Of a stretch of 64,000 nt of DNA, positions 24,955 through 27,727 are shown piece by piece. The notes under the pieces were generated by a model that saw nothing but the letters and a program-made list of their open reading frames with translations, made no database searches and was not told where the DNA came from. Where the stretch lies: the NCBI GenBank assembly GCA_018401705.1, contig JAGYKL010000017.1:1-64000 (forward strand), given 5' to 3'. Each line of letters starts with the position of its first letter. Position 1 is the first letter of the stretch. This stretch comes from Bacteroidia bacterium (GTDB lineage Bacteria; Bacteroidota; Bacteroidia; M30B66). A program made the translations under genes and the position numbers.

Positions 24955-24965
24955 GGGATTTGAAG

Positions 24966-25613
24966 ATGCTTCACTTACATCATTTTACATTTAATCCTTT
25001 TCAGGAGAATACCTGGCTCATTTGGAACGATAGTTTAGACTGTATCATTATAGATCCGGGCTGTTATAGCGTTACTGAAAAGCAGGAATTGAAAGCATTT
25101 ATTGAAGCTAACAATCTCAAGCCGATTAGGTTAATTAACACGCATTGTCATATAGATCATGTTTTGGGTAATCCTTTTGTTCATAAAACGTACGGCTTGC
25201 AGCCGGAAATTCACCCGAATGAGAAACCTATTTTGGATGCCGTTGAGCAATATGGTCAAATGTGGAATATTTATTCAGAGTCTCAGCCTGAGCCAGTTTG
25301 CAATTTGGATAAGGAAAAAGAAATTGTTTTGGGTGATGAGAAACTAGAGATTGTTTTTACTCCCGGCCATGCGCCCGGGGAAGTTTCCTTGATTAGCCAC
25401 AAACATAAATTCATCATTGCCGGTGATGTGCTTTTTAGAGAATCTATTGGGAGGACTGACTTACCGGGAGGAAATTTTGAAACACTTATAAAAAGCATCA
25501 AAGAGAAACTCCTGATTTTGGATGATGATTATGAGGTTCATTGTGGTCATGGGCCGAGTACGACTATTGGGCATGAGAGAAGGAATAATGGGTTTTTGAG
25601 AGAACCAATTTAG
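24966..25613 (+). CDS. MBL fold metallo-hydrolase (glyoxalase II-like)
   Basis: A 215-residue cytosolic metallo-beta-lactamase-fold hydrolase. The binuclear metal site is visible as THCHIDHVLGN (about residues 60-66), with further ligands in TPGHAPGEVSL and the Asp of IAGDVLFRESIGRTDLPGG, and the final His in VHCGHGPSTTIGHER. The small size and GRTDLPGG loop match the YcbL-type hydroxyacylglutathione hydrolase-like group. The specific thioester substrate is not clear. The ATG at 24966 aligns with family N-termini (HHFTFNPFQENTWL); a TTG six bases upstream is less likely. The hairpin repeat array begins 30 bp after its stop. Confidence 0.9.
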   Translation: MLHLHHFTFNPFQENTWLIWNDSLDCIIIDPGCYSVTEKQELKAFIEANNLKPIRLINTHCHIDHVLGNPFVHKTYGLQPEIHPNEKPILDAVEQYGQMWNIYSESQPEPVCNLDKEKEIVLGDEKLEIVFTPGHAPGEVSLISHKHKFIIAGDVLFRESIGRTDLPGGNFETLIKSIKEKLLILDDDYEVHCGHGPSTTIGHERRNNGFLREPI

Positions 25614-25645
25614 TGGATGATTAAGAGTCACTCATTCTGCTTTTT

Positions 25646-26262
25646 CGACCTCTCCCCCCTGTCTGCAGCAGGCAAGCGACCCCTCTCCTCAAGGAGAGGG
25701 AAGGTCATAGATTTTTTTCGCTATTTAAGTCTCTCATATGGCTTCATCGACCTCTCCCCCTTACCCCCTCTCCTTGAGGAGAGGGGGAGAATATTGATAG
25801 AATTTACATGATTTTTTGTCCCTCTCCTATCACCTTCAACCTAAGACCTCTCCTTGACGAGGCAAGCTCCTCATAAACAAGGAGAGGGGGAGATAATTGA
25901 TAGAATTTACATGATTTTTTGTCCTTGTACTTTCACATTTGACCTCTCCCCTTGCCCCTCTCCTCAAGGAGAGGGGGAGAAATAACTTAAAAAGTTTGAA
26001 TGATATCAAGTCTCTCCCCTATCATCTTCGACCTCACCCCCAGCCCCCTCTCCTCAAGGCGATGGTGAGATAATTGATAGAATTTACATGGTTTTTTGCC
26101 TTTCTCCTATCACCTTCGACCTCACCCCCCTGCCTGCAGCAGGCAGGCTGCCCCCTCTCCTTGACGAGGCAAGCTCCTCATAAACAAGGAGAGGGGGAGA
26201 AATAACAAAAAAGCTTGAATGATATCAAGTCTCTCCCCTGTGGGGAGAGATTTAGAGAGGGG
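25646..26262. repeat. array of seven GC-rich hairpin repeats with nested palindromic inserts
   Basis: Seven units share a core such as CCCCTCTCCTCAAGGAGAGG that folds into a long hairpin: about 25646-25700, 25748-25790, 25845-25893, 25941-25980, 26029-26070, 26118-26200 and 26230-26262. Two kinds of insert interrupt them. A palindrome containing CTGCAGCAGGCA lies in units 1 and 6, and a segment ACGAGGCAAGCTCCTCATAA sits in the hairpin loop of units 3 and 6. Spacers also repeat: GATAGAATTTACATG follows units 2, 3 and 5, while TTGAATGATATCAAGTC follows units 4 and 6. The array grew by duplication. Unit 7 overlaps the last codons of the convergent T9SS gene. I see no gene in the array; open frames through it are low-complexity. 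Confidence 0.9.
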
Positions 26263-27727
26263 TCACAACCACCTTCTCAACCACCACCACCTCAATGCCC
26301 TGCATAACCCGACAATAATAAATCCCTTTTGCCAATCCGCTTAGATTTAATGTATGTGTGCCGATACCTGAGAATTGCTCGTTTTGGATGAGGCGGCCTG
26401 TGGCGTCTAGGAGTTGGGCAGTGTATGGTTTACCATTTTGTTCGATATCAATTTTAAGCCAATCTTGAGCAGGATTGGGGTAAATGGTAACGGCATCAGG
26501 TAGTGGCATATCTCTAACTCCTACCTCACAATCTTGTGGGTCGAGGCAGCCGTTGGCATCAAGTTTAACTGCCCAAGCATCTTGACCGCTCAATACTGCA
26601 TTGCAGGCGCCAGCAACCAACAAACCGCCATCTGATGTTTCTATAAAATCAAGAAAAAAATCTGAAGATGGACCAAAATCATATTCCTTTGCCCACAACA
26701 TATTACCCAATGAATCGGTTTTCATGATATAACCGGCATTTACAGTTGTCGTATTTATTCCAACAGCAATAATCCCTCCGTCTGAAACACGTCTGGCTAT
26801 ATAATTATCAGTATTAATAATTCCTGAATAAGTTTTATTAAAAATCAAACCGCCGTTATCATCAATCATAATAATTTTAGGATGTACAATTGAACCAAAC
26901 TTATATCCTGCAATTAATAATTTATTTGGCCCATAGCGAGAAATATCACCTTCAAACAATTGAAATACATTAAAGGAAGATTCTAAATCTCCATCTGAAT
27001 CTAAATTAACAATTATAACACTAAGTCCTGATGCCGTAAAATCAGGCCCTCCAGCATTGCATAAAATAAAGCCACCGTCTTCCCTTTCAAGGAAGCCATT
27101 TGTAACTTCTACAAATTCTATGTCTATAACATTTTCATTTAACAACTCCCCTTCAGCACTCAATTTTAAAAAAACTACATCAAATGGGTCTTCTTCAAAT
27201 TCAAAATCAATTGCTCGTGTTGCTGTTAAAGCTATTGAACCATCAGAGGTCTCCATAATGTAGCCTGGTGTATCAAACCACAGAGAATCGTGATGATAAT
27301 AGCTCCATAATGTATCACTAAAATCCGGAGATATTTTTAATACAAAAATCTGATTTCGGCCAGCAGCAATGCCTTCTAAGCCAAATTGACTGCGCGTATT
27401 GAGCACAAGTAAATTCCCATCTGAACATCGGGCCGCATTGCAGAAAGCATAAAATCTTCTGTTTGGGTCATGCTGGAGATTGTCAAGAATAATTTCTCCC
27501 TGATTATTGATTTTAGTAAATCGGTGATACCCCCCTTCATTAATAAACAAACTTGAACCTGCGCTTGGAAAAAAATACTCTTCATTTTCTAATTCAATAA
27601 TCTTTTTTATATGACCAGAGAAACGGCCTGTATCGGGGTAATTGATAGAAAATGTTGTTGGTTGAGCTAAACAAAAATCAACTAAGCTTAAAACCAAAAA
27701 TGAACAGAAGAAAAGCTTCTTTATCAT
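26252..27727 (-). CDS. secreted beta-propeller-like protein with T9SS type A sorting domain
   Basis: A 491-residue exported protein: signal peptide MIKKLFFCSFLVLSLVDFCLAQ, then repeated blades of the kind ETSDGSIALTATRA, REDGGFILCNAGG, VSDGGIIAVGIN and ETSDGGLLVAGACNA, each with the phrase (E/S)DGG, which form a propeller-like body. The C-terminal sorting domain starts at VTIYPNPAQDWL and ends VVEKVVVTPL. The last residues and stop codon are encoded by unit 7 of the hairpin array, so the original 3' end may have been altered by the repeat. The start codon overlaps the stop of the upstream 143-residue frame (ATGA). Ligand unknown. Confidence 0.88.
   Translation of the reverse strand: MIKKLFFCSFLVLSLVDFCLAQPTTFSINYPDTGRFSGHIKKIIELENEEYFFPSAGSSLFINEGGYHRFTKINNQGEIILDNLQHDPNRRFYAFCNAARCSDGNLLVLNTRSQFGLEGIAAGRNQIFVLKISPDFSDTLWSYYHHDSLWFDTPGYIMETSDGSIALTATRAIDFEFEEDPFDVVFLKLSAEGELLNENVIDIEFVEVTNGFLEREDGGFILCNAGGPDFTASGLSVIIVNLDSDGDLESSFNVFQLFEGDISRYGPNKLLIAGYKFGSIVHPKIIMIDDNGGLIFNKTYSGIINTDNYIARRVSDGGIIAVGINTTTVNAGYIMKTDSLGNMLWAKEYDFGPSSDFFLDFIETSDGGLLVAGACNAVLSGQDAWAVKLDANGCLDPQDCEVGVRDMPLPDAVTIYPNPAQDWLKIDIEQNGKPYTAQLLDATGRLIQNEQFSGIGTHTLNLSGLAKGIYYCRVMQGIEVVVVEKVVVTPL

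Follow-up and report, generated by a model that had tools for sequence, protein, structure and literature searches.

The best known member of the class II intrastrand-triplex motifs, whose strand order was defined by Holder et al. 2015, is the BoxC/PIT/TM_ECO repeat (PMC4666352). Single-stranded TM_ECO forms a triple helix in vitro, no stable triplex was found in vivo in E. coli, TM_ECO loci are more variable between E. coli strains, and in E. coli MG1655 the motif was reported to be always intergenic (PMC4666352). Other described systems share part of this anatomy or behaviour with the locus reported here: the GTAG/CGTC REPs and their REP-associated tyrosine transposase (RAYT) (PMC3733652, PMC6006769), which are small dispersed palindromes found in clusters and inverted pairs; the Rickettsia palindromic elements (RPE), which are mentioned in PMC3733652 as palindromes lying in frame in protein genes; and whalefall-1 (Rfam RF01762), described as a non-coding RNA from whale-fall samples only (PMC2864571).

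The window analysed here, a 64,000-nucleotide stretch of a contig from a Bacteroidia bacterium, contains an array of seven GC-rich units at 25644-26262, sited between the 3' ends of two convergent genes. We give a probability of roughly 0.72 to the reading that intrastrand-triplex-type DNA repeats of the BoxC/PIT/TM_ECO class make up this array, in a variant with palindromes in its loops, and that it grew as an unstable repeat slipped or recombined. The left neighbour gene (24960-25613, plus strand) belongs to the metallo-beta-lactamase superfamily (PF00753) and stops short of the array. The right neighbour gene (26252-27727, minus strand) encodes a T9SS C-terminal sorting domain (PF18962); its TAA stop codon, read from 26254 to 26252, falls inside unit 7, which also encodes its last residues, TPL. 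An earlier note on this DNA had described seven hairpin units, two repeated spacer types, a position between convergent 3' ends and a stop codon supplied by the array, and all of these features were recovered.

The motif lies on the minus strand in units 1 to 6 and on the opposite strand in unit 7, with a start-to-start spacing inside the array of 88-103 nt. Unit 1 (25644-25702) is triplex-type with 9-nt stems, and its loop 2 (25657-25680) contains insert A; the triplex scan placed it at 25648-25700 with mismatch 0 and loops of 2 and 24 nt. Two insert-free units, unit 2 (25748-25789; 11-nt stems) and unit 4 (25940-25979; 10-nt stems), each have loops of 2 and 3 nt and fit the published triplex definition with 0 mismatches. 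Unit 3 (25847-25893) is a hairpin whose loop 1 (25856-25878) contains insert B, and it has no adjacent third strand. Unit 5 (26029-26069) is decayed, retaining the purine arm and mirror tail beside a mutated pyrimidine arm, and was not detected in the triplex scan. Unit 6 (26117-26199) has 11-nt stems with 0 mismatches and carries both inserts, A at 26130-26150 (loop 2) and B at 26162-26186 (loop 1), while unit 7 (26228-26264, plus strand) is triplex-type with 9-nt stems and loops of 3 and 3 nt. Spacer type 1 lies between units 2 and 3 (25788-25846) and occurs again after units 3 and 5; spacer type 2 lies between units 4 and 5 (25978-26028) and occurs again after unit 6.

Read on the motif strand, an intact unit consists of a pyrimidine arm, loop 1, a purine arm, loop 2 and a tail that mirrors the purine arm. 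Unit 2 provides an example, its purine arm, loop and tail reading AGGAGAGGGGG-TAA-GGGGGAGAGGT. A triplex scan of the 64 kb required stems of 8 nt or longer, loops of up to 6 nt and a GC content of 50% or more, and tolerated one mismatch. Exactly three motifs were returned, units 2, 4 and 7, all with 0 mismatches, and none was found in any of 20 dinucleotide shuffles of the window, so that their number lies well above chance. Under the ITxF class II definition, which calls for Y-R-RH stems of 6-15 nt and loops of 1-6 nt and allows a single mismatch, only these three of the seven units qualify strictly; units 1 and 6 qualify with longer loops, and units 3 and 5 fall outside the definition. Despite its two inserts, unit 6 retains three perfect 11-nt stems, with loops of 25 and 21 nt; folded as single-stranded DNA, it was predicted to form a hairpin, a second hairpin and a free tail (z -4.97).

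Judged by their sequence, the intact units are class II intrastrand-triplex motifs of the BoxC/PIT/TM_ECO class (purine motif); this assignment was made because a mirror-image third strand is present, a feature overlooked in the earlier note. The likeness extends to the order of the three strands, the GC-rich purine motif, a single T in many third strands, the short loops of units 2, 4 and 7, dispersed copies and inverted pairs. The differences are in stem register, loops, arrangement and location. Stems in the window, compared by eye, are CCCCTCTCC(T)/(A)GGAGAGGGG or TCTCTCCCC/GGGGAGAGA, so that the register is CCCCTCTCC in the window and CCCTCNCCC in TM_ECO, and the window units did not match the strict TM_ECO pattern CCCTCNCCC-N3-6-GGGNGAGGG-N3-GGGNGAGGG. 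Loops in the window are enlarged by palindromes, whereas the published TM_ECO search used loops of up to 6 nt. Unlike TM_ECO, which is entirely intergenic in E. coli MG1655, the units form a tandem array and some copies lie in frame in genes.

Two kinds of palindrome occupy the loops. Insert A (TGCCTGCAGCAGGCA type; CTGCAGCAGGCA) lies in loop 2 of units 1 and 6, and insert B (ACGAGGCAAGCTCCTCATAA) in loop 1 of units 3 and 6. The inserts thus lie at defined positions inside the units, as the earlier note had proposed; the single common site that it had assumed gives way to two different loops. Its suggestion that palindromes were duplicated together with their units was supported as well. A 47-nt block containing insert B is present in both unit 3 and unit 6 (25847-25893 and 26154-26200, 100% identical). 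The spacers after the two copies of this block differ, type 1 behind unit 3 and type 2 behind unit 6, a sign that units have recombined or undergone conversion with one another. Inserts in loop 1 and loop 2 also occur in other copies in the source genome. The insert A palindrome was also observed alone, outside units, at C13:36499 (L044), C36:14264 (L046), C89:79168 (L051) and C28:21975 (L054), and may be a repeat in its own right.

Related units or the bare hairpin were found at six further places in the source genome: C12:71288, C12:140690, C18:20105, C24:8558, C36:6006-6129 and C56:27982-28743, a count obtained from pattern searches. The dispersed hairpin family suggested by the earlier note, which had named an absence of copies elsewhere in the genome as grounds for rejecting it, was therefore upheld. 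The hairpin pattern with loops of up to 31 nt gave 20 matches in the source genome, some of them overlapping, compared with 1 for the reversed control. The block consisting of a unit, spacer 1 and a unit with insert B is present also at C12 and C24, and so probably predates the array. At C56:27982-28743 (L035), about seven inverted pairs form an array of their own, with stems unlike those of the window; in the second member of each pair the stem reads CCCTTTCCC, loop 2 contains an GCCGAGCCCAGCGAGGC-type insert and the tail, GGGATAGGGG, matches the stem.

Across 692 nt, the right-hand part of the array plus the coding end of the T9SS gene shares 76% identity with C24; at C18 the T9SS end, beside its own unit, shares 86% identity over 152 nt (window 26014-26695 compared with L407 and L406). 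From these identities, the unit and the sorting-domain end may have travelled, or undergone conversion, as a pair. The ends of T9SS genes at C9, C18 and C24 were seen to be alike in DNA, and each adjoins or enters a hairpin unit.

In the phylum sample, the motif with loops of up to 31 nt was present in 48 of 198 genomes and 42 of 103 genera, and the reversed control gave 0. Among the matches listed, the hairpin and tail occurred on many viral-catalogue and genome contigs, and the phyla represented among the genome contigs listed were Bacteroidota, Proteobacteria, Chloroflexi, Cyanobacteria, Planctomycetes, Acidobacteria and others. In 88 distinct strings taken from the matches listed, loop 2 was either 3-9 or 13-29 nt long when measured from the 7-nt core, with none between. 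For 21 of the 29 long loop 2 sequences listed, the inverted repeat was equalled by at most 5% of shuffles; among these same matches, loop-2 palindromes tended to be genome-specific. When 13 loci of relatives found by the hairpin alone were inspected by eye, a tail like CCTCACCC/GGGTGAGG, or its equivalent, was present on one side in all 13. Contigs from Xanthomonas, Dyella, Deltaproteobacteria and others (L226, L266, L257, L241, L296) showed GGGAGAAGG, a GC-rich palindrome and then GGATGAGGG, that is, a different stem, a loop-2 palindrome and a matching mirror tail with one T.

The relation between tail and stem was compared across 1125 distinct purine/pyrimidine hairpins in the DNA examined, a set biased by the search pattern, 498 of which carried the mirror of their own stem within about 31 nt; the mirror of another stem was found in 44 on average. 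For stems without the searched word, the own mirror was present in 66 of 203 hairpins (26 distinct 8-mers), compared with a control mean of 7.2 and a maximum of 16 in 500 draws, and a direct copy was present in 13; the 66 include same-family copies, many of them from L112, so that the effective number is smaller. Purine-rich DNA is also partly symmetrical on its own, which weakens the comparison. The tracking of the stem by the tail is support for, not proof of, a constraint on three strands.

Some copies lie inside genes. At C12:140690 the units are in frame in leuS (peptide LTPSPSPQERGEG...; PF13603, PF00133), and five of the 13 relatives' loci found by the hairpin alone lie in open frames with Pfam matches, namely a family member's leuS, ftsY, an NAD-dependent epimerase gene, a LuxE-like gene and a gene for an Lhr-type helicase. 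The leuS frame at C12 (L405, C12:137300-141700, minus strand) was observed to end early, after SGFTDLR; leuS-like sequence seemingly resumes in another frame, perhaps because of a frameshift or an assembly error. DUF559 (PF04480) lies in frame beside the editing domain in leuS of both the source genome (L036, C12:139000-142500, minus strand) and the family member (L062). The units lie on different sides of the DUF559 insert in the two genes and so look like separate insertions. This arrangement resembles the in-frame palindromes of Rickettsia; the description of RPE in PMC3733652 mentions no triplex anatomy, and it is by this description rather than by sequence that the two are set apart.

The earlier note had also considered copying by a REP-type transposase. 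Elements of the REP/BIME type copied by a RAYT would, like the units, be dispersed, clustered and palindromic at about 40 nt, and Y1_Tnp genes are present in the source genome and many relatives. However, the genome search returned two Y1_Tnp genes, one truncated and neither with a unit nearby, and in surveys of the source genome and relatives only one of 60 Y1_Tnp loci (L381) had units within about 1.5 kb. Several genomes carry copies and gave no match in the Y1_Tnp search (G023, G256, G264 and G238). The foot of the hairpin reads CCTC[AT]CCC or GGGGAG, and the GT[AG]G or CGTC tag is absent there, although GT[AG]G is required for canonical REPs (PMC6006769). Identity with GTAG-type REPs was ruled out by these foot sequences and the 1/60 linkage. 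Compared with GTAG/CGTC REPs, the units lack both the GTAG/CGTC end and a linked Y1 transposase, and possess a mirror-image third strand. What still speaks for RAYT copying is a gene at C21 that resembles a truncated RAYT-like protein, and we consider this origin unlikely. That gene (C21:2023-2220, L039), a seemingly truncated RAYT-like Y1_Tnp gene, was observed to have no hairpin repeats nearby.

Equally improbable, in our estimate, is a function as a bidirectional transcription terminator, or as a stabiliser of mRNA ends, for the two convergent genes. The position of the array between these genes and the strength of its hairpins agree with such a role, which the earlier note had proposed. 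A consensus scan of 25500-26400 found no intrinsic terminator, defined as a GC-rich stem with a T-run directly after it, and the claim was not sustained. Relatives of the unit also lie in frame inside genes, and the E. coli relative had neither promoter nor terminator activity according to earlier work cited in PMC4666352.

Instead of a DNA element, the units could represent a structured non-coding RNA akin to whalefall-1. Units 1 and 4 match RF01762 over its full length at 22.2 and 20.6 bits, and the long-loop units share its order of hairpin, second hairpin and tail. The shared features are the hairpin TCTCTCC/GGAGAGA, a second hairpin and the tail AGGGTGAGG, and the order in the RF01762 model, ending in the tail AGgGuGAGGAC, is that of a unit with a long loop 2. 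Every match in the window, however, lies below the gathering cut-off of 37 (units score 16-22 bits, the best 22.2), and membership of RF01762 was dropped on these scores and kept as a likeness. The units also occur in tandem arrays, in many copies per genome and in frame in genes on either strand, and the tail of the RF01762 model itself mirrors its hairpin arm, as fits a DNA triplex. Unlike the units, RF01762 was described as an RNA confined to whale-fall samples. We regard the RNA reading as very unlikely, and propose that whalefall-1 is related to the triplex-type units with a long loop 2. Long-loop units of relatives scored higher against RF01762: 34.8 bits at the locus L353 and 38.5 bits in one of 149 genomes of the class, which passes the cut-off; other sub-threshold matches had different stems and matching tails. 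Rfam microRNA and snoRNA matches, with E values of about 0.3-3, were attributed to chance. That the array is no more than a local tandem repeat, as its spacing might suggest, is refuted by the related units at six other places in the source genome and by the spread of the motif through the phylum sample and many phyla.

If the array is a cluster of triplex-type DNA repeats, slippage or recombination of an unstable repeat is the most likely route by which it grew. As a single strand, for example at a replication fork, a unit would fold into a hairpin with the purine tail as third strand. The folded unit would hinder replication or repair and leave the locus prone to slippage and recombination, and blocks of roughly 90 bp, each a unit plus its spacer, would be duplicated to give the array, carrying insert B along. 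Such a mechanism is in keeping with the instability reported for TM_ECO loci in E. coli (PMC4666352). The loops would tolerate extra palindromes because these leave the stems undisturbed. Each unit would then be a passive or selfish repeat, able to end up at gene ends or in frame in genes.

More tentatively, and with somewhat more doubt than confidence, we suggest that the BoxC/TM repeats, the units of Bacteroidota and other phyla that have a palindrome in loop 2, and whalefall-1 belong to a single superfamily of DNA elements under selection for mirror symmetry of three strands. The third strand would change with the stem, loop 2 would serve as a slot for exchangeable palindromes, and the elements would have reached gene ends, and in-frame positions within essential genes, with no known transposase. 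The motif class itself was already known. A literature search, with subscription papers outside its scope, found neither the exact Bacteroidota form nor a paper on the Xanthomonas-type form with a loop-2 palindrome; for the Proteobacteria form it pointed to PMC4666352. As far as the literature searched extends, what is new is the presence of palindromes in the loops, the arrangement in tandem, the occurrence of copies in frame and the resemblance to whalefall-1; parts may have been described before in subscription papers.

Should the third strand indeed change with the stem, this would be comparative evidence that a triplex, beyond a hairpin, is maintained in cells, a sign that in vivo footprinting in E. 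coli did not give. Whalefall-1, a curated candidate RNA, may be a DNA repeat instead, as its likeness to the units suggests. The in-frame copies, in leuS, ftsY and further genes, would represent a natural protein insertion element, comparable to the Rickettsia palindromes.
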